This document shows positions 49,453-58,450 of a stretch of DNA of 58,621 nt, in pieces. This stretch comes from an uncultured Spirochaetaceae bacterium (GTDB lineage: Bacteria > Spirochaetota > Spirochaetia > Sphaerochaetales > Sphaerochaetaceae). Position numbers and translations under genes: made by a program. Each line of letters opens with the position of its first letter. Positions within the stretch are counted from its first letter, which is position 1. The notes beneath the pieces are model-generated. The model did no database searches, had not been told where the DNA came from, and was given only the letters and a program-made list of their open reading frames with translations. The stretch spans positions 1-58,621 of the forward strand of contig CAMDZB010000004.1 of NCBI GenBank assembly GCA_945910645.1. The letters run 5' to 3'.

Positions 49453-50043
49453 ATGTTAAAAATGGACTTCAGTAAGAAAACAGAAAAGAAAACTCAGAAG
49501 AAAGAAACAAGCGTAGAAAAAGATGAATCATCAAAGGCTACAGCCAAGAAAAAGGGCAAGTTCAAGAGCTCTTTTAAGGTTGGAGATACTGTGGTGTACC
49601 CTTTCCATGGCGTTGGAAAGATTGAAAAGACTGAAACCCATCAAGTGCAAGGAAACGACATTGATTTCTTTGTGATCAACATACCATCAAACAAGATGAC
49701 TATAGCAGTGCCAATCGAGATGGCTGAGGAGAAAGGCATTCGTCACCTCATCTCGCAGGCTGAGCTTGATAGCGCACTTGTTCATTTAAAAGATAAGCCA
49801 GATAACTCGATGGACTGGAAGGTGCGTCAGCAGACCAATAATAGTCTTGTAAAGAAGGGCGATATTCTCTCAAACATCAAGGTGATTGTATCCCTTCATT
49901 CGAGGAACAAGGAGAAGGAGCTTCCTCTTCAGGAGAGACGCATCTACGACTCATCCGTGACCATGCTCAAGACTGAGATGTCAATCGTTATGAAAATTAC
50001 TGAAGAAGAGGCTGGCGAGATAATCAAGAGCTATCTTCCATAA
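49453..50043 (+). CDS. CarD-family transcription regulator
   Basis: CarD proteins bind the beta subunit of RNA polymerase and stabilise open promoters. After a lysine-rich 35-residue N-terminus comes the CarD/TRCF interaction domain (FKVGDTVVYPFHGVGKIEKTE, about residues 40-100), then a helical DNA-binding part (WKVRQQTNNSLVKKGDI and LPLQERRIYDSSVTMLKTEMSIVM). 196 residues. The same order carD-ispF is seen in other spirochaetes and firmicutes-like lineages. Confidence 0.87.
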   Translation: MLKMDFSKKTEKKTQKKETSVEKDESSKATAKKKGKFKSSFKVGDTVVYPFHGVGKIEKTETHQVQGNDIDFFVINIPSNKMTIAVPIEMAEEKGIRHLISQAELDSALVHLKDKPDNSMDWKVRQQTNNSLVKKGDILSNIKVIVSLHSRNKEKELPLQERRIYDSSVTMLKTEMSIVMKITEEEAGEIIKSYLP

Positions 50044-50052
50044 GGGCTTATT

Positions 50053-50523
50053 ATGAGAATTGGACTTGGGTTTGATTCGCATTTTCTTAAATGTAAACGT
50101 GGTATTATCACCCTCGGCGGTGTTAAAATTCAAAGTAAATTTAGCGTTGTGGCTCATAGCGATGGCGATGTTATTGCGCATGCTCTTATTGATGCAATTG
50201 CTCCCCTCTACCTTGGCTCGTCTATTGGTGAGCTCTATAGCGATAAGGATGAGAGTGCGCGTGGCTCAGATTCAATGAAGCGCCTTAAGGATGTGTATGT
50301 TAAGGCATCCTCCCCTGAGATTATTAATATAGATATCGTTGTTCAGACTGATGATGTTTATATTGCATCGATTGCAGATGCGATTAAACGCAATATTGCA
50401 TGTTGCTTCGGCATAGAGCCTTCCGCTGTTGGCATCAAGGGTAAGACACTTGAGGGACTTGGAGCGCGATGGCTTTGGCGTGGGCATTCTATTCGCGTCT
50501 ATGCCGTAGTTTTGGCTCGTTGA
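50053..50523 (+). CDS. ispF: 2-C-methyl-D-erythritol 2,4-cyclodiphosphate synthase
   Basis: IspF makes the cyclic diphosphate of the non-mevalonate isoprenoid pathway. The zinc ligands are visible as DSH near residue 8 and HSD near residue 36 (AHSDGDVIAHALIDAI). The C-terminal part is divergent: KGKTLEGLGARWLWRGHSIRV replaces the usual KATTTEKLGFxGRxEG. The last codons (L-A-R-stop) fall within a GGCTCGTTGA repeat, so the gene end may have been reshaped by that element. Confidence 0.85.
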   Translation: MRIGLGFDSHFLKCKRGIITLGGVKIQSKFSVVAHSDGDVIAHALIDAIAPLYLGSSIGELYSDKDESARGSDSMKRLKDVYVKASSPEIINIDIVVQTDDVYIASIADAIKRNIACCFGIEPSAVGIKGKTLEGLGARWLWRGHSIRVYAVVLAR

Positions 50524-50729
50524 ATCTGCGGGCAAATACGTTGTCAAACTACGGCATCGGCGCTTGGCCTACCACAAAGGTATGTCCTGCGCTGGCCTTG
50601 CCTAGCTTTCTAGTAGCTCATCTCAATATTCAACTCGCTAAGATGCTTGCCCAAATCTGCGAACAAATTCGTTGCACTCGCATCTCAAACTTGCAGATAT
50701 GTGCCAGCCAGTAATAATATCAAACTCGC
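50514..50729 (+). repeat. GGCTCG repeat family, copy A
   Basis: Starts GGCTCGTTGAATCTGCGGG and runs to a conserved 3' module (50672-50729). A central 28-bp block at 50564-50591 is identical to 51511-51538. The centre folds into an imperfect hairpin around TACC-ACAAA-GGTA with further GGC/GCC pairing outside. No credible protein is encoded in 50524-50803. Confidence 0.8.
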
Positions 50730-50783
50730 AGTGGTATCTAGTACGCGATTTTACTTGGTATTAAAAATATGAAGAAGATATTG

Positions 50784-50789
50784 TATAAT
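50784..50789 (+). promoter_or_regulatory. -10 element of the second Fic gene
   Basis: Consensus TATAAT, 15 bases before the ATG at 50804. No clear -35 was found 17 bp upstream, and the short leader has only a weak GGA as ribosome-binding site. Confidence 0.45.
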
Positions 50790-50803
50790 TATGGATAGAT
50801 ACT

Positions 50804-51460
50804 ATGTTTGAAGATAAGTACAACCTAACTTTAAAGGAAAACCTCTTTCTCCTACGAAAACACTTCTCATCGGTGGTATACACTGGACTCAAGATGGAGA
50901 ACAGGAATATCACGTTCCCACAGACGGAGGTGATCCTTCAGGGCGTAAATGACGGCGCTGTTGCACTTGATGATATCTATGCTATCCTTGGGATGAAACA
51001 CGCTATTGAGGTGCTCATAAAGAACATAGATAAACCGCTCACCTCATCCATCATTAAGGAGTTTAACCTCCACATTGCAAAGGAAGAAGCAATTGAAAGC
51101 GGCGTTATAAGGAGCGGTCGTGTGTCCATCTCTGGCACTGATTATGTTCCTCCTGCTGTTACTGATGCAATGCTTGATGATAATCTAAGTCATGTGCTAT
51201 CATCTCGTAAGACTTACACTGAAAAGGCAATCGATCTGTTTCTTGATCTTATCTATACTCAGTACTTTTGGGATGGAAACAAACGTACAGCGCTACTTAG
51301 TGCTAACTTTTTACTCTGTCAGCACGGGCTTGGATTACTCGAGATTATGGATCGTGATATGGTTGAATTTGCTACTCTGTTAAACAAGATGTTCAACACT
51401 GGGCAGAGAGATCAAATTAAGGTGTTTCTATATAATCATTGCATTACAGGCATTGATTGA
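50804..51460 (+). CDS. Fic/Doc-family protein with altered catalytic motif
   Basis: The 218-residue protein has the Fic fold and the motif block QYFWDGNKRTALLSANFLL near residues 158-176. The first residue of the motif, normally the catalytic histidine (HxFxDGN[G/K]R), is glutamine. The phosphate-binding GNKR part is intact. It may therefore be inactive as an AMP-transferase, or act by a different reaction. No antitoxin gene is adjacent; the gene is enclosed on both sides by members of the GGCTCG repeat family. Confidence 0.78.
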   Translation: MFEDKYNLTLKENLFLLRKHFSSVVYTGLKMENRNITFPQTEVILQGVNDGAVALDDIYAILGMKHAIEVLIKNIDKPLTSSIIKEFNLHIAKEEAIESGVIRSGRVSISGTDYVPPAVTDAMLDDNLSHVLSSRKTYTEKAIDLFLDLIYTQYFWDGNKRTALLSANFLLCQHGLGLLEIMDRDMVEFATLLNKMFNTGQRDQIKVFLYNHCITGID

Positions 51461-51701
51461 GGCTCGTTTGATCTCGGGCGCCTAACTTTGTCAGACTGCA
51501 CCCGCCCAACTTGGCCTACCACAAAGGTATGTCCTGCGTTTGGGGCTCGTTTGATATGCGGGCAATCTCTTTGTCTCTCTCCACCTCAATGCTCACTCAC
51601 ATACACAAAGTATGCTCGCTTCGCTATTGAGTGGGTTCGACTTTGACCTTGCACTCGCATCTCAAACTCGCGGTGCCATCCAGTAATAACCTCAAACTCG
51701 C
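51461..51701 (+). repeat. GGCTCG repeat family, copies B and C
   Basis: GGCTCGTTTGAT occurs at 51461 and again at 51544. Copy B shares an exact 28-bp block with copy A. Copy C ends with TTGCACTCGCATCTCAAACT at 51649-51668, which is nearly the inverse of its own start (GTTTGATATGCGGGCAA), and has an inner pair CCACCTCAAT/ATTGAGTGGG. Copy C thus forms one imperfect palindrome of about 128 bp. Nothing protein-coding is seen here. Confidence 0.8.
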
Positions 51702-51715
51702 TAGGGGGGGTGTTT

Positions 51716-51738
51716 AATCTGCGGGCAAATACGTTGTC
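51716..51738 (+). repeat. GGCTCG repeat family, fragment D
   Basis: A 23-bp block, AATCTGCGGGCAAATACG followed by TTGTC, is identical to copy A at 50523-50545. It directly abuts the truncated end of the flavoprotein gene. Confidence 0.85.
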
Positions 51739-51879
51739 TTAGACCACCTCAATGCCAAAGTTCAACGACAGGATATAAGGGACAGGCTCACTGCTAAATC
51801 CCAATCGGATATAATCGCATTTGTTGATGATTGCAACAATTTCATTAAAATCCGTTACTTCTCGGTCTGATCTACGCAT
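51739..51879 (-). pseudogene. Truncated pyridoxamine 5'-phosphate oxidase-like (Nim-type) gene
   Basis: Only 46 residues remain: MRRSDREVTDFNEIVAIINK, then CDYIRLGF and a Pro-Tyr-Ile-x-x-Leu-Asn-Phe-Gly segment, the N-terminus of flavin-binding proteins related to nitroimidazole resistance proteins, which are normally about 150 residues. The reading frame stops exactly where the GGCTCG repeat fragment begins. GGGGGGGAGAGG precedes the ATG, so the start was once well translated. A run of eight G lies in that ribosome-binding region. Confidence 0.75.
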
Positions 51880-51952
51880 ACCTCTCCCCCCCCTGTTATT
51901 TTTAAACACAGCTAAGTGGCAAACAATAAACGTTATAAAGAAAACTTGCAAC

Positions 51953-52714
51953 TCAATTTGAGTTATATGAAGACAATAACTTATGGTTATAGTCGTTTGC
52001 AAGTCCTATTGCCAATGACATTGAAATCTTTGATTCTTCCATAGTCGGCACCTGAACCTTAACCAACAACAGAGGAATTAACGACGAAAGTGTCAATAAA
52101 CTGCCAACACCGGCAATAATTCCTCCCGGAATCAACACTGAATTATTATATCCTGAAAGACCGCACATCAAAGCTCCGGCTATCATAGCTCCCAATCCCA
52201 CTCCTAACAATGTATATCCTGCAATATTAACTGCATTCTTTTTTCTTTTATAAGCGTCATATTGAGAATTATACATTTCGATTTTATTCCTCATATCATC
52301 CTCTAAATCGTACGCACCGACCATATGTAAAAAAGAAAGTTTACTGATTTTTTCAGGACCGCAATAAGGAACCCAATCAATGCTTTTATTTGTTTCCGAA
52401 TATCCGTCCGATGTTGCTCCACCTACTGCAGACGATGCTAAAATAAGAGTAGAAACCAATCCCAAATTCCCGGAATAAAAAAGCGGAGCATATGAAAACG
52501 TATTAGTTTGGCTATGCGTTTTTGATGTTTCCTCTGTTTCTATACTTAAATGATTGTATAAAAAGTGCCTCTTTTGTTCTTCTGTAAGATTTTGGTAAAT
52601 TTCTGCATCGTTGTTATTTGTCATAACCGTTTCCGTAAAAGCGGCAAAAACAGAGGTTGAACCCACTGCTAAAAGTATTACTAAAGCTGTAACTATATTA
52701 ATAATTTTTTTCAC
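51953..52714 (-). CDS. Exported membrane protein of unknown function
   Basis: A signal peptide (IINIVTALVILLAVGSTSVFA) is followed by a polar region, a weak hydrophobic stretch near residue 85, and two strong glycine-rich membrane segments near residues 170-215 (GYTLLGVGLGAMIAGALMCGL and VLIPGGIIAGVGSLLTLSSLIPLL). The start is GTG at 52714, preceded by GGAG. Spirochaetes have many proteins of this look; no known domain was recognised. The downstream end runs into the truncated flavoprotein leader. Confidence 0.65.
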   Translation of the reverse strand: MKKIINIVTALVILLAVGSTSVFAAFTETVMTNNNDAEIYQNLTEEQKRHFLYNHLSIETEETSKTHSQTNTFSYAPLFYSGNLGLVSTLILASSAVGGATSDGYSETNKSIDWVPYCGPEKISKLSFLHMVGAYDLEDDMRNKIEMYNSQYDAYKRKKNAVNIAGYTLLGVGLGAMIAGALMCGLSGYNNSVLIPGGIIAGVGSLLTLSSLIPLLLVKVQVPTMEESKISMSLAIGLANDYNHKLLSSYNSN

Positions 52715-52884
52715 AATTTACTCCATCTGTGATGTAAGGTATAAACATTATATTAGAAAACACCATAAAAGAGAATAATGCATGGCGTGGATGAGGTGAA
52801 TTTAGTGTAATCTCAGTTATATCTAAAACAATTACTTTTCCTTTCTAAAAATACAAAAAGAACAGGTTTTTAAAACAATAGTGG

Positions 52885-52952
52885 TATACGCGGCGGCTGC
52901 TCTCCTCTTGGACTTATAAAAGCCACAGACGGAATTGTCTGTGGCTTTGTTT
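52885..52952 (+). pseudogene. Deleted remnant of a ybaK-like gene, now a perfect hairpin
   Basis: 28 bases at 52885-52912 are identical to the active-site region of the intact ybaK (55823-55850), and 22 bases at 52919-52940 match its 3' end (55965-55986); the 114 bp between them are missing. In the remnant AAAGCCACAGAC (52919-52930) pairs fully with GTCTGTGGCTTT (52937-52948); the intact gene has a broken right arm. The hairpin may end transcription of the radical SAM gene. The rest of 52715-52884 shows only promoter-like AT-rich sequence. Confidence 0.8.
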
Positions 52953-52980
52953 AGGACGTGGGTGTATTAACCTGTTACGC

Positions 52981-54339
52981 TTAATGTTCACTACAATACT
53001 CTTGGAGAGCCTCATAATATAATCGTGTTATTTCGCAGTTATGATCTGTTATCTTCATATAGTCACCGTTGTTTTCATTTGCATTTTTTGAAAAGCAAAT
53101 ATGACAAAACGGACGAATATCACAACCGTTACACTTTTTAAAATCACTGTAGCGAATATATCTAATTTTTTTAAAGGCTGATGAGTGTAAAAGTATATCC
53201 AACATTGTATTGTGTTTAACATTACCACAAACACAGTTCCATCCGGGGCATGGTACAACATCTCCGTTTGAGTTGATTGCAACTCCGTTTAAACCAACTC
53301 CGCATGGTCTATCTGTTGTTTTGTACCCATTTTTAATCTGTTCAATATCAATTGCTTTAGCTTGTTGTGTTAGAGAATTTTTAAATTGAACTTTTAATGC
53401 TTGGTAATCCGGACGATGTAAAAGATTTTGAGTACAACAGTCACTTTCTGCAAATATGTCGTTATCTATTCTAAGCTTGATATTATTCTCTTTACACCAT
53501 TTACTAACATCGCTGCTGTCATTGATATTATAGTCCATTAACGGACACGCTATCCAAACATTAACATTATTGTTAAGGAGCTTTTTTATATTAGCAAATG
53601 TTTTATCAAAGGAGCCTTTAAGGATTGTGATTTTGTCATGCGTTTCTGCCTTCAAGCTATACAGCGAAATTTGAACGGTAGTTAGCGGATTTTTAAACAA
53701 CTCAAGATATTCATCATTAAGCAACGTTAAATTGGTAAATACCGTAACAAAGATATGCTTTGTTTGCAGCCTTTTAATAACTTCCGCAAAGCGAGGGTGC
53801 AGCATTGGCTCACCGCCGGATATGTTTACACTCATAACGGATGAAGAATTATCAATTTCATCAAGAATTTTATCAAGTGTATGGTTATCCATATCTTTTA
53901 TTTTATCTTGATGAGGAATATAGCAGTGAATACATCTTTCGTTACATATGTTTGTTAACTCGATATGAATGTGACGTAGATCAACCGAATTGTCAATCTC
54001 TTGTGTGAGTTCTCCCTCTTTAATCATGGAATCACTTGGTATTTGTTGCAATTCATCATCACATTCAATATCAACCATATTCAGTTTTTTTAAACTGTAA
54101 TAAAATTCTATAGCATCGTTTTTTAGTGTCTCATAAGATACATCAATATAAACTGATAAAAGGTGTTTTACAACAGTATCTATGTTTTGATATTCATACG
54201 TAAGGCATGAACAAAAAGGAATGGACCCCTCCTCTACAACAACAGATGATTCTTCTAAACCATTCTGTCCTCTGTATAAAATCCATCCCCTTTTGTCAGA
54301 CACTTTAAAAACAGTTAAATTATTTAATTTAAGTTTCAT
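52981..54339 (-). CDS. Radical SAM/SPASM peptide-modifying enzyme with PqqD-like N-terminus
   Basis: Radical SAM enzyme of about 452 residues. The first 95 residues resemble a PqqD/RRE peptide-recognition domain (LNNLTVFKVSDKRGWILYRG, then HLLSVYIDVSYETLKNDAIEF). The SAM cluster motif is CNERCIHC near residue 145, followed by NISGGEPMLHPRF. The C-terminal SPASM region has CPGWNCVCGN and KKCNGCDIRPFCHICFSK for extra clusters. Such enzymes crosslink or modify ribosomal peptides. A 34-residue candidate substrate lies just upstream. The start is uncertain: ATG at 54339, or TTG at 54363 close to the peptide stop. Confidence 0.88.
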   Translation of the reverse strand: MKLKLNNLTVFKVSDKRGWILYRGQNGLEESSVVVEEGSIPFCSCLTYEYQNIDTVVKHLLSVYIDVSYETLKNDAIEFYYSLKKLNMVDIECDDELQQIPSDSMIKEGELTQEIDNSVDLRHIHIELTNICNERCIHCYIPHQDKIKDMDNHTLDKILDEIDNSSSVMSVNISGGEPMLHPRFAEVIKRLQTKHIFVTVFTNLTLLNDEYLELFKNPLTTVQISLYSLKAETHDKITILKGSFDKTFANIKKLLNNNVNVWIACPLMDYNINDSSDVSKWCKENNIKLRIDNDIFAESDCCTQNLLHRPDYQALKVQFKNSLTQQAKAIDIEQIKNGYKTTDRPCGVGLNGVAINSNGDVVPCPGWNCVCGNVKHNTMLDILLHSSAFKKIRYIRYSDFKKCNGCDIRPFCHICFSKNANENNGDYMKITDHNCEITRLYYEALQEYCSEH

Positions 54340-54366
54340 TTTTCTTGCGTCTATGTTATTCAATCA

Positions 54367-54471
54367 TTATTCTCGGCAAAGATGGCCCATGCCCTGATAT
54401 CTTGGTATACAAGGATATGGGATTACACCCATGTTCACAACTTTCATTGCTTGCGGTTTACAGTACTTCAT
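54367..54471 (-). CDS. 34-residue three-cysteine peptide, candidate RiPP precursor
   Basis: The frame starts MKYCKPQAMKVV and ends HLCRE. Cysteines are at 4, 21 and 32; residues 17-25 read IPYPCIPRY, followed by GMG. AAGGAGGT lies ideally before the ATG, the strongest ribosome-binding site in this region. The start overlaps the NTPase stop by 14 bases and the stop lies 3 bases before a possible TTG start of the radical SAM gene. Size and place fit a precursor peptide; the modification and any leader cleavage cannot be read from the sequence. Confidence 0.7.
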   Translation of the reverse strand: MKYCKPQAMKVVNMGVIPYPCIPRYQGMGHLCRE

Positions 54472-54955
54472 CGTTTACCTCCTTTATATTAAGTTTTTCA
54501 AGAATTTCATCAAGACATTGTTTATTATTTTGATCTTGTTTTAACTTGTCATTTTCATTAGTAGTTATTACCTCAAAACAACTTATGATATTTGCATATT
54601 TATGATTTTTTAATGATTTATCAAATGCATTCTTCACGTTTTCATGCTCAGTATTCTCTGATATAATCCAATAGTCTATTTTTAACATTTCTTTATTGCT
54701 ATAAAGACAACAATCAACAACAAAAAGATAGTTAATGAGTAGTTCACGATAATTATCTCCGGGACTTGTAATTACTACATTTATGTCGTTACCGTCACTA
54801 TCTTTACCATTAAGAAAAACACGATGGTCTTTTGGATCATCTGTTTTTTTATGGTCTACTCTAGTAAAATTATTCTTGATTAATTCATTATACAAATTAT
54901 CCAAAATTGTTGTCTTGCTGGAATTACTTTTCCCGGATAGTACTATAACTTCCAT
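54458..54955 (-). CDS. Small P-loop NTPase of the radical SAM locus
   Basis: The 165-residue protein starts with a Walker A motif, LSGKSNSSKTTIL (GxxxxSKT), at about residues 6-18. A VITSPGDNYRELL strand near residue 68 and VVDCCLYS near residue 83 look like the rest of a small nucleotide-binding fold; the C-terminus is charged. The ATG at 54955 is chosen because GGGAG lies six bases before it. It is the first gene of the operon with the peptide and the radical SAM enzyme. Its job there, such as regulation or transport, is unknown. Confidence 0.72.
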   Translation of the reverse strand: MEVIVLSGKSNSSKTTILDNLYNELIKNNFTRVDHKKTDDPKDHRVFLNGKDSDGNDINVVITSPGDNYRELLINYLFVVDCCLYSNKEMLKIDYWIISENTEHENVKNAFDKSLKNHKYANIISCFEVITTNENDKLKQDQNNKQCLDEILEKLNIKEVNDEVL

Positions 54956-54992
54956 ATAATCTCCCGCCCTATTCAAAGAGTATTTGTTTTGT

Positions 54993-55101
54993 TATAGGGT
55001 GCTATGTCAATAGCACCCTATATACGCTAATATTAGCGTAGCGCAGGAATACGTGCTTCTAAAATTGGGATTTTAGGAAAACGAAAATAATGATAAAACG
55101 G
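54993..55101. repeat. Triple-hairpin element, copy 1
   Basis: Three hairpins in series: TATAGGGTGCTAT/ATAGCACCCTATA (54993-55022, loop GTCA), the perfect palindrome TACGCTAATATTAGCGTA (55023-55040) and CTAAAA/TTTTAG (55059-55076). The element ends near 55101, inside the azlC pseudogene. It lies 38 bases before the NTPase start, in the leader of the peptide operon. On the minus strand the first loop region reads TTGACA. Confidence 0.85.
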
Positions 55102-55502
55102 GAATATGTGCGACATAATTGACAGAAAAGGTTTCGACGCATATACCGTATATCAGACAATACTTTTTCCATCCTAAGTTCCTGTATTTATCAAGCATGG
55201 AAATGCCGTAAAACAAGTGACGTGCCTACAGAATTAAAGAAATTGCAAATACGCTAAGAGGTGCATAAGGAGACAGGAACATATTTACAGCCACAATTCT
55301 AGACTACCCCCAAAAATCACCATACTCATAATAATGGGATATACAAAACTAAAACCGGAGATATTCATCAAAACTCCATAGACAAATGATAAAAACAAAA
55401 ATCCTGCAAAGATAGGAATCGTATATGGAAAGGCACATTTAAAGGCGTTTTTTACAGATGTAACATGTAATTTCCTATTATATAAAGGCTGTCTTTTATT
55501 AA
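55102..55502 (-). pseudogene. azlC-like branched-chain amino acid exporter, broken
   Basis: Minus-strand translation gives AFKCAFPYTIPIFAGF, then FGGSLE, then after a one-base shift FVAVNMFLSPYAPLSVFA, and then ARHLFYGISMLDKY, all characteristic of AzlC. There are at least one frameshift near 55300, one in-frame stop near 55225, no proper start codon, and truncation at 55101 by the repeat element. It is divergent from ybaK. Confidence 0.75.
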
Positions 55503-55532
55503 CAACAATTTTTATTTAAAATAAAAATAATA

Positions 55533-56000
55533 ATGAAAACAACCAATGCAATAAGAATATTAGATAAGCTCGGCGTGACATACGATGTATATGAATACGA
55601 TTTTGACGAAGACAATCTTGACGCTATGCATGTTAGTTCTTCTTTAGGTTTTTTACCGGAGCAAGTTTTTAAAACAATCGTATTAGTAAATGATGAAAAA
55701 AAATTGTTTGTTTTTGTTCTTCCTGCCGACTTTTCAATATCGCTAAAAAAAGCAAGAACATTAACAAAGAGCGGACAAATAGATCTTCTTAAAACGTCCG
55801 ATCTTCAAAAATATACCGGTTATATACGCGGCGGCTGCTCTCCTCTTGGAATGATAAAAAAATATCCCACGTTTATTGAGGAAACTGTTTTACTTGAAGA
55901 TTTTGTTTGTGTAAGCGCCGGGGTCAGAGGGGAAATGATAAGGCTATCCCCTGCCGACTTAATCAAAGCCACAGACGGAATTGTCTCTGATTTTGTTTAA
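55533..56000 (+). CDS. ybaK: Cys-tRNA(Pro)/Cys-tRNA(Cys) deacylase, YbaK type
   Basis: YbaK removes cysteine wrongly attached to tRNA(Pro). The 155-residue protein has QVFKTIVLV with the catalytic lysine near residue 47, and GYIRGGCSPLGMIKKY near residues 96-111, as in the family. The 3' end contains the sequence from which the remnant at 52885-52952 derives. It lies downstream of the azlC pseudogene, on the opposite strand. Confidence 0.9.
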   Translation: MKTTNAIRILDKLGVTYDVYEYDFDEDNLDAMHVSSSLGFLPEQVFKTIVLVNDEKKLFVFVLPADFSISLKKARTLTKSGQIDLLKTSDLQKYTGYIRGGCSPLGMIKKYPTFIEETVLLEDFVCVSAGVRGEMIRLSPADLIKATDGIVSDFV

Positions 56001-56008
56001 CTGACCTA

Positions 56009-56332
56009 TTAATCGTCATCATCGTCATCTTTGTCATCATCGTCATCATCGTCTTTGTCGTAACAGTTGTTTTTATCTGCTACTGTTTCAACATTAACAT
56101 CTTCATTCGGTACAGCAAATACTTTGCCGCAATCTATACACACATATGCTGTAATATTATCAGTACGTTTAGTACATCGTAAACATAACATATCCTTCCC
56201 CTCTCCAGGGTAATCCTCTTTCATTTTATTCATAAGATTTTCACTAAAAGAACAATCATTATAACTCGTACAAGTACAATAAAGATGCTTAGTTCTAATA
56301 TTTAGACTATCACAATAAGGACAATGATACAT
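56009..56332 (-). CDS. Zinc-ribbon protein with aspartate-repeat tail
   Basis: The 107-residue protein begins MYHCPYCDS and has further CxxC pairs (CLRC, CIDC), forming two zinc ribbons. The last 17 residues are almost only aspartate with two lysines, encoded by a GAT/GAC trinucleotide repeat likely to vary in length. The ATG at 56332 is preferred because AAGGAG precedes it. It overlaps the 156-residue gene by 23 bases. Function is unknown. Confidence 0.65.
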   Translation of the reverse strand: MYHCPYCDSLNIRTKHLYCTCTSYNDCSFSENLMNKMKEDYPGEGKDMLCLRCTKRTDNITAYVCIDCGKVFAVPNEDVNVETVADKNNCYDKDDDDDDDKDDDDDD

Positions 56333-56780
56333 AAACACACTCCTTTATTGCTTTATCAAGTTCTTTTAATTGAGAAATAACTTCTTGTACTATTTCTTCA
56401 TCTTTTTTACCTGTAATCTGAATTCCACTGCTATCTTTGTAATACCATAGCCAGTTATCATTTTTGCATCTGTCTAAGTCTGATTTGTTTAAACCACAGC
56501 TATTTAATAAGTTAGTAATTTTTTCGGCTTCCTTACCTGTAAAATTTTTTTGTTCCAAGTGAAACATTACATAGATTATTGAGTCTTTTTCTATACGAAC
56601 TTCAAAATGATAATCTTCAGTCCAAACAAATGGCCATCTCTTTAACCCTATTTGTATATACTCACCATTATTATTATTCATATCCAGCGGGTGTTCTAAA
56701 TAAAAGAAACCGGCATTATCAAGTTCACATTGTATTTTATTAAATAATTGCTTATGTTTCTTATTCTGCTCATTACCCAT
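56310..56780 (-). CDS. Protein of unknown function between two zinc-ribbon genes
   Basis: The 156-residue protein is alpha/beta-looking, with strands such as YIQIGLKRWPFVWTEDYHFEVRI and IIYVMFHLE and a conserved-looking NDNWLWYYKD near residue 108. No catalytic motif, signal peptide or membrane segment is visible. It is co-directional with the zinc-ribbon genes on both sides and overlaps the downstream one, so they are probably made together. Confidence 0.6.
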   Translation of the reverse strand: MGNEQNKKHKQLFNKIQCELDNAGFFYLEHPLDMNNNNGEYIQIGLKRWPFVWTEDYHFEVRIEKDSIIYVMFHLEQKNFTGKEAEKITNLLNSCGLNKSDLDRCKNDNWLWYYKDSSGIQITGKKDEEIVQEVISQLKELDKAIKECVYVSLSLL

Positions 56781-56818
56781 TTTTATCTCCTCAAATTAGT
56801 ATTAGTTGATTACTCACT

Positions 56819-57034
56819 TTACCAACGTGTTCCACAGTCATAACAATAGTGGCGCTTTCCACTTTTGTTATAGTACGCTGTATTAGTACTACCACATGTT
56901 GGACATTCATACTCATCTCGTCTATCATCCTCGGATTCATCAAAATGTCCGCCACAATTATAACACTTAAAATCGTCACTCAAGTCATCCCAATGGAATC
57001 TTGTACTACCACAATATGGACAATGTTTCCCCAT
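56819..57034 (-). CDS. Double zinc-ribbon small protein
   Basis: 71 residues with four CxxC pairs: CPYC, CYNC, CPTC and CYDC, thus two complete zinc ribbons, joined by an acidic linker DESEDDRRDE. AAGGAG precedes the ATG. It is the first gene of the trio and lies directly behind the second copy of the triple-hairpin element. It may bind nucleic acid, but no function is known. Confidence 0.7.
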   Translation of the reverse strand: MGKHCPYCGSTRFHWDDLSDDFKCYNCGGHFDESEDDRRDEYECPTCGSTNTAYYNKSGKRHYCYDCGTRW

Positions 57035-57066
57035 ATATTTCTCCTTGTCTAACAGTGTTTTTGTGT

Positions 57067-57175
57067 TATAGTGGTGCTATGTCAATAGCACCACTATATA
57101 CGCTAATATTAGCGTAACACGAAAATACGTGCTTCTAAAATTGGGATTTTAGGAAAACGAAAATAATGATAAAAA
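57067..57175. repeat. Triple-hairpin element, copy 2
   Basis: Same order as copy 1: TATAGTGGTGCTAT/ATAGCACCACTATA (57067-57098, loop GTCA), TACGCTAATATTAGCGTA (57099-57116), CTAAAA/TTTTAG (57135-57152). In the first stem both arms have gained one complementary base relative to copy 1, so pairing is kept. It lies 32 bases upstream of the first zinc-ribbon start. Confidence 0.85.
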
Positions 57176-57541
57176 TTGATAGAATGACAAGAAAATAAAT
57201 GGCTTTGCGATTTATTTATCGACCTACTCGGCGCGACATAAGTCGCTTATCGTACGGTCGTAAACTTATTTTTGCAAAACAAGTAATGTCCTGTTGTAAT
57301 ACTCTGCTTTTAGACCTGTTCTCAGTTTTTACGGACTTTAACTCAAATCAATCAACTAAACGCCCTAAAAACAAAAATCAACTCTATTCTCTTAAAAAGT
57401 CACTATTTTATGACAAAAAAAAACATTTTCTGCTTATTAAGTTCACTGCCAACTTGTAGTATAACGGAATAAAATCAAGTCAGCAGTGATCCTTTACATA
57501 ACATTTGTCCGTGAGCCTAAAATTCTTTATACATATTCTAA
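57176..57541. other. Non-coding stretch with a nested hairpin
   Basis: CGACC (57220-57224) and GGTCG (57256-57260) enclose GCGAC (57233-57237) and GTCGC (57242-57246), giving a nested hairpin. An 86-codon plus-strand frame at 57199 lacks a ribosome-binding site and resembles nothing known; I do not call it a gene. The rest is AT-rich and without recognised content. Confidence 0.4.
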
Positions 57542-58450
57542 TTATTGAGGCTTAGATAAATTAATTAACAACTTACCGGATGCTACTGCCTTAATTTCTT
57601 CCCCCTCTCCTACAAATCCTATAACTCTATAATCTATTGTTTTTGAATACTTAGCTGCTTCACTTAAGCCGGCATTAAAGTCATCATTTATGCTCCAACC
57701 ATATGGAAAGATAGCTAATATTTGTTTCGTAGTGTCACCATTTGTAATAGAATCTGTTCCTGTTGAGCCATATGTATATGTTTTAACACCGTTTTCTATG
57801 TTTACTGTCTTTTTTGTAAAATAGAATGATGGTGTTTGAGGAGCACTTCCGTCATTGTATTTAAAGTCAATACCAAGCATAGTTTTGCCTATCTCTTGTG
57901 CGCCCGATGATGGTATTGTAATTGTTACACTATTTTTGTCAGCACTCAATTGAGGAGCACCCAAAGTATTATTGTTATTCCAATATACCCCCTCCGGTTT
58001 CATTTCAGAAAGCCCTGATAAATAATCCGTTCTGAATACTTTCTTATCATCCACACGAATATCAGGATGCTCACTGCTAAGTTCCATCTGTAAAACAGGA
58101 GCAGCTATTTTAAGTTTTCTACCTTCAATTTTATAAACGTTTTGGGTTATAAATGAATTGTTTCCAATTGACAGCTTAAGCTTATCAGTTGGAGTAAATG
58201 AAGTTTCCCCTACCTTAACATTTTCTACATTATCAATTGTTCCGACTTCAATATAGAATTTATTCGGGGGTGTAACATTATCATTATTCTGTACATCATT
58301 ATAAATATTTTTGATTTCAATAAGAGAACTTTTAACACTATCTTGTATGTTAACATCTTCGACAGGTATCTTTGTTTCGTTTGGGCATGAAACAAGTATC
58401 ACGGTAAATAACAAACAAAAAATTAATGAAATAATTAATGTTTTCTTCAT
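57542..58450 (-). CDS. Predicted surface lipoprotein
   Basis: Signal peptide with lipobox (IISLIFCLLFTVILVSC, lipidated Cys near residue 22). The 302-residue mature part looks beta-rich with short low-complexity Asn/Asp stretches (NNDNVTPPN, WNNNNTLG) and no recognised domain. AAAGAGGTG precedes the ATG. The promoter includes a 26-base poly-A/T tract, which may switch expression. It is the last gene before another GGCTCG repeat copy. Confidence 0.7.
   Translation of the reverse strand: MKKTLIISLIFCLLFTVILVSCPNETKIPVEDVNIQDSVKSSLIEIKNIYNDVQNNDNVTPPNKFYIEVGTIDNVENVKVGETSFTPTDKLKLSIGNNSFITQNVYKIEGRKLKIAAPVLQMELSSEHPDIRVDDKKVFRTDYLSGLSEMKPEGVYWNNNNTLGAPQLSADKNSVTITIPSSGAQEIGKTMLGIDFKYNDGSAPQTPSFYFTKKTVNIENGVKTYTYGSTGTDSITNGDTTKQILAIFPYGWSINDDFNAGLSEAAKYSKTIDYRVIGFVGEGEEIKAVASGKLLINLSKPQ

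Follow-up and report, generated by a model that had tools for sequence, protein, structure and literature searches.

A Probable Mobile RiPP Cassette of Spirochaetes and Plasmids, with a YxxP Leader Peptide and a Radical SAM/SPASM Enzyme Carrying a Predicted Recognition Element

Gene Layout of the Cassette

Here we describe a three-gene cassette in a 58,621-nucleotide stretch of DNA from an uncultured Spirochaetaceae bacterium (the window, meaning the whole stretch that was analysed). All three genes lie on the minus strand and encode a small P-loop NTPase, a 34-residue peptide, and a radical SAM/SPASM enzyme. The features are as follows.

54458..54955, minus strand: NTPase gene; 165 aa, small P-loop NTPase, an occasional partner gene
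54367..54471, minus strand: precursor peptide gene (putative); 34 aa, YxxP leader, Cys21-X10-Cys32 core
54427..54471, minus strand: leader part of the peptide, residues 1-15; contains YCKP, 91% nucleotide identity to a sister species
54367..54426, minus strand: core part of the peptide, residues 16-34 plus stop; 47% nucleotide identity to the sister species
52981..54339, minus strand: radical SAM/SPASM maturase (putative); 452 aa from ATG
54028..54339, minus strand: predicted RiPP recognition element (RRE, PqqD-like) of the maturase, folded over its first ~95 residues
51746..54510, no strand: block common to the window and the sister species; 96.6-98% nucleotide identity

A preliminary description made from the sequence had proposed these genes as a tightly packed, overlapping RiPP locus. 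The genes are real, lie where they were placed, and follow the order given; the overlaps are smaller than described. The peptide gene overlaps the end of the NTPase gene by 14 nt, and the reading of the second junction depends on where the enzyme begins. A TTG at 54363 would give a 460-aa protein (52981-54363); the ATG at 54339 is the likelier start, because the open reading frame of the sister species and those of most relatives start at the aligned ATG. With this start the peptide and enzyme genes do not overlap—27 nt separate them.

The peptide, MKYCKPQAMKVVNMGVIPYPCIPRYQGMGHLCRE, is present as first described, with cysteines at positions 4, 21, and 32. Its start is preceded by AAAGGAGGTAAACG-ATG, and the strong ribosome-binding site ascribed to it is indeed there (AAAGGAGG). 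Likewise, neither a protease nor an exporter was found near the cassette, in agreement with the preliminary description. No riboswitch or other known RNA was matched within the cassette by Rfam. The tail of the window that holds these genes has a GC content of 33% (vs. 42%). A role in anti-phage defence was considered and rejected: PADLOC gave just generic viperin-type radical SAM scores, and the NTPase scored none.

Several other features of this region were recorded. An element of ~130 nt upstream of the NTPase gene (54968-55098) is repeated, at 91-94% identity, 2 kb away at 57043-57174, upstream of a zinc-ribbon gene; it contains the perfect hairpin TAGGGTGCTAT-TGAC-ATAGCACCCTA, and no further full copy was found in the genome. 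After the enzyme gene, the sequence at 52860-52953 is similar to segments from the 3' portion of a tRNA_edit gene (55659-55999), with 87-95% identity over short pieces—possibly a rearrangement scar. A Fic/DOC family gene (33 bits) lies at 50804-51460, shortly before the low-GC tail.

A Family of Related Loci

The same genome holds a second NTPase-peptide-enzyme cassette in the same gene order (contig C11, locus L003/L044). Its NTPase is 39% identical to that of the window and its radical SAM enzyme 34-36%, depending on the alignment; its peptide is MAYTKPLVIAGTKANGNFSAGCVDKYGYGCCATCRCS, and an amidohydrolase gene comes after the enzyme gene. Profile searches extended the family to about 40 related radical SAM loci in Spirochaetota, on plasmids of E. 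coli, Salmonella, and Photobacterium, and on two IMG/VR contigs, with seven plasmids and the two contigs contributed by the plasmid and IMG/VR searches. The boundary of the family is a clear gap in score: members reach about 350-730 bits, other radical SAM proteins at most 258.

Of the 39 loci with enough upstream sequence to be testable, 35 have a short YxxP-leader peptide ahead of the enzyme: in 31 it lies within 1.5 kb and on the same strand, and in four more it is found farther upstream. The preliminary description had staked its RiPP proposal on such a peptide recurring beside homologous enzymes, and it does. The count is partly circular, since the reading frames were searched for with YxxP, and is therefore no evidence by itself; what counts is the comparison with three control positions searched for the same motif (1/39, 2/38, and 2/38) together with the fold described below. 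The system is real, and we consider its reading as a RiPP system well supported.

The peptides fall into types. Type A has a proline-rich core near CRPNSKPSGRPCNPPGPSGR and is identical in amino acids in all seven plasmid records, with the E. coli and Photobacterium enzymes 77% identical. Type B reads AQN...GSYAAGCP; a variable stretch comes next, and CxxC usually stands at the C-terminus. The window peptide represents a third type. In the resources searched we found no earlier annotation or detection of the peptide, and a search of open-access papers found no description of the family; we call it a new family within the radical-SAM RiPPs, which are a known kind of system.

The plasmid and phage-like settings deserve separate mention. 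The peptide-enzyme pair (L039, L040, L041, and L042) is carried by seven conjugative plasmids of E. coli, Salmonella, and Photobacterium, and adjoins a serine recombinase gene in the plasmids inspected; its 38-aa peptide, the same in all seven, is unannotated in the gene tables searched. The plasmid cassette was unmatched, in near and distant mode, in the collection of E. coli chromosomes and plasmids ‘ecoli_genomes’; E. coli plasmids in PLSDB carry it. On one IMG/VR contig with phage-like genes (L037) the cassette appears as prophage cargo. At five loci (L079, L087, L098, L100, and L106) the family enzyme has another radical SAM gene of the SPASM type as its neighbour; this one scores about 220-258 bits to the family profile and apparently has no RRE where inspected.

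The Recognition Domain

A PqqD-like N-terminus had been proposed for the enzyme, with its absence as one stated ground for giving up the RiPP reading, and the family bears the proposal out. The PqqD Pfam model matches 20 of 25 family N-termini, with no match on the window enzyme's own. For that segment, a structure predicted from 23 sequences (aligned relatives included) gives strands and then three helices (mean pLDDT 86.6), and its top PDB matches are complexes of TbiB1 with its leader (5v1u and 5v1v; probability 1.00, TM 0.70/0.82, E 1.4e-4). The prediction thus gives the first ~95 residues the fold of a RiPP recognition element. In a 2025 study YxxP is given as the lasso-type recognition sequence, and W/Y/LxxP/L/I motifs are listed for a number of RRE groups, PqqD among them (PMC12710340). 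The match to a lasso-type RRE independently agrees with the YxxP found in the peptides.

TbiB1, an RRE of lasso-peptide biosynthesis, is therefore the nearest parallel for the recognition step, in the predicted fold and in the leader motif; here, however, RRE and radical SAM enzyme make up one protein. Neither an asparagine-synthetase-like lasso cyclase nor a leader peptidase lies next to it or elsewhere among the Pfam-scanned neighbours (49453-58450), so the locus is not classed as a lasso peptide cluster.

The Radical SAM/SPASM Enzyme and Its Possible Product

The enzyme scores 84 bits to the Radical_SAM Pfam model and 37.1 bits to SPASM (cut-off 21.5). The radical SAM motif CX3CX2C is present as CNERCIHC (C140/C144/C147 in the 460-aa numbering) and invariant in the family; seven SPASM-type cysteines are conserved (C354, C372, C411, C414, C420, C423, and C443), with the last pair described as CX2C. 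Among solved structures SkfB—the maturase of the sporulation killing factor sactipeptide, likewise a peptide-modifying radical SAM enzyme—is the best PDB match to the window sequence (6efn, E 2.3e-14) and to the family profile (E 1.9e-25); it differs in its unrelated precursor and other gene neighbours, and the window enzyme scores just 72 of the 300 bits of its NCBIfam model. SuiB, a SPASM maturase with a fused RRE (5v1q), shares the combination of RRE, radical SAM, and SPASM (profile match E 2.5e-11), but its leader motif and precursor are not alike, and the family profile is distinct from all NCBIfam equivalogs.

One narrower form of the RiPP cassette explanation is that the product is a thioether, with Cys21 and/or Cys32 joined to the carbon of another core residue in the manner of sactipeptides or ranthipeptides. 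The two core cysteines are shared by the window and sister peptides, type A peptides have the same C-X10-C spacing, and the closest solved structure is that of a sactipeptide maturase. The sactipeptide models AlbA (83.5 bits; cut-off 850), SkfB (72.1; 300), and StsB (70.5; 625) and the ranthipeptide model PapB (69.3; 340) are among the best NCBIfam scores, all far below cut-off. Since the window enzyme reaches no NCBIfam equivalog cut-off, we do not file it as a sactipeptide or ranthipeptide maturase. PapB-type peptides are defined by a CX3D/E pattern, which the window core lacks; C-C, ether, or epimer products are equally possible. We regard the chances of a thioether as about even. The window enzyme also forms a long branch in the enzyme tree, so its chemistry may differ from that of its relatives.

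Partner Genes: NTPase and Amidohydrolase

The gene first described as a small Walker A NTPase does encode a P-loop protein, with a motif that is not canonical—in GKSNSSKT a serine replaces the second Walker A glycine, and the C11 paralog has GASNSGKT. Its fold was predicted with confidence (pLDDT 82), yet no PDB entry matches it at an E-value below 0.001. In sequence and fold it weakly resembles MobB, P-loop kinases, and small GTPases; the best TM-scores are only ~0.3-0.4, leaving no confident relative, and MobB models score 14.2 bits (cut-offs 26.6 in Pfam and 76.2 in NCBIfam).

Is the NTPase part of the system, or an unrelated passenger beside it? It accompanies just four of the about 40 radical SAM loci (window, C11, G366, and G254), which fits the preliminary view that it is an unusual partner. 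A two-sequence profile had suggested that it is exclusive to the cassette; we rejected this claim and reduced it to what follows, because a four-sequence profile found weaker relatives (20-52 bits) adjoining unrelated genes in other spirochaetes. These relatives and the rarity of the association speak for a passenger. On the other side, the four top-scoring copies (146-221 bits) are all at enzyme-peptide cassettes; these show three gene orders and are spread over separate branches of the enzyme tree. We lean against the passenger reading; the NTPase is probably an accessory of the pathway, in regulation, peptide handling, or self-protection.

More often the partner is an amidohydrolase, which comes after the enzyme in many loci (10 in the first set, then more); its alignment largely preserves the metal-binding residues usual for such enzymes. 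None lies beside the window cassette; the single clear copy in the genome is at C11. Bottromycin biosynthesis involves an amidohydrolase—a parallel that we take as a lead only.

Divergence of the Peptide Core

In a sister species (G001, contig JAQYLW010000072, locus L001) the cassette lies within a 2.76-kb block that is 96.6% identical overall to the window. Nucleotide identity within the block is 98.4-99% for the enzyme, 97.8% for the downstream gene, 91% for the leader, 47% for the core, and 60% for the short gap between core and enzyme; the core and this gap are its sole differing parts. The window peptide reads MKYCKPQAMKVVNMG-VIPYPCIPRYQGMGHLCRE and that of the sister MKYSKPQATKVVNMG-GIGFNCPPKWNDMRMQCRVG, with both core cysteines and the X10 spacing kept. 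The block ends within what seems to be a shortened version (51746-52002) of a 166-aa gene; the sister has this gene intact (L001, 2627-3127).

Other alignable parts of the two genomes are 64-77% identical, so the ~98% identity of the block argues that it was transferred recently. A mis-binned contig was considered as the cause and rejected, for the remainder of the G001 contig, which has a uvrC-like gene, matches the window genome at only 69%. That contig ends inside the NTPase gene, with the peptide close to its end, and the true block may be larger.

The contrast between leader and core is seen again in the pairs L092/L093, L092/L095, and L093/L095 (leader 97-100%, core 49-58%, enzyme 85-91%), which form one cluster of three loci and are not independent; the pair L078/L100 shows mild change (core 84% at enzyme 88%). 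Together with the 35 of 39 loci that have a leader peptide, a conserved leader and a variable core next to the enzyme are what was found in the family, and the pattern suggests ongoing diversification of the end product.

Alternatively, the two genomes may simply hold different old alleles, with no active swapping of cores. The exact cassette is known from two sequences only, and the gap after the core differs as well (60%). The flanks, however, are near-identical (leader 91%, enzyme 98-99%), so recombination must have joined the alleles, and the leader/core contrast is seen in other pairs. We think old alleles unlikely. A stronger form of the mobile-cassette reading is itself doubtful, and we offer it as speculation: that the core moves as a unit in and out of near-identical leader and enzyme flanks, so that every strain makes a product of its own, and that the NTPase is a dedicated partner (e.g., in strain-specific handling or immunity).

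Proposed Mechanism

Our preferred reading, held with high confidence, is a mobile RiPP cassette in which a YxxP leader docks on a fused RRE, radical links are made in the core, and the core diversifies. The 34-residue peptide would be the precursor and its first ~15 residues (MKYCKPQAMKVVNMG) the leader, whose YxxP would dock on the N-terminal RRE of the radical SAM/SPASM enzyme in the way that the YxxP leaders of lasso peptides do on theirs. We infer that the enzyme acts on the core, in which it would form at least one radical-derived link, probably through the paired cysteines C21 and C32 (C-X10-C). Recombination or very rapid change would replace the core with leader and enzyme nearly constant, so that one enzyme could yield many products, and such products may serve interactions specific to a strain or target. 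Genes elsewhere would have to provide for leader removal and any export, the cassette having no protease or exporter.

A PQQ- or mycofactocin-like role for the peptide, as a cofactor precursor or internal signal made within the cell, would fit the PqqD-like domain, the missing exporter, and a type A core that is the same on E. coli, Salmonella, and Photobacterium plasmids, as for a fixed structure, but it is improbable, given that window-type and type B cores are highly variable, unlike a cofactor, and that no PQQ or mycofactocin equivalog cut-off is reached (mycofactocin 65.7 of 265 bits; PqqE absent among the window enzyme's best 25 NCBIfam models and at 78.9-80.8 of 381 bits in two relatives).

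Significance

The probable mobile RiPP cassette described here adds a family of radical-SAM RiPPs, mostly spirochaetal, with a simple and easily recognised layout in which a SPASM enzyme carries a fused lasso-type RRE that would read a YxxP leader. The 38-residue proline-rich peptide on plasmids of E. coli, Salmonella, and Photobacterium makes the family open to direct study in laboratory E. coli. In the spirochaetes, near-identical sister cassettes with unlike cores are a natural experiment on the substrate tolerance of a maturase—and they also bear on what selects for new products.
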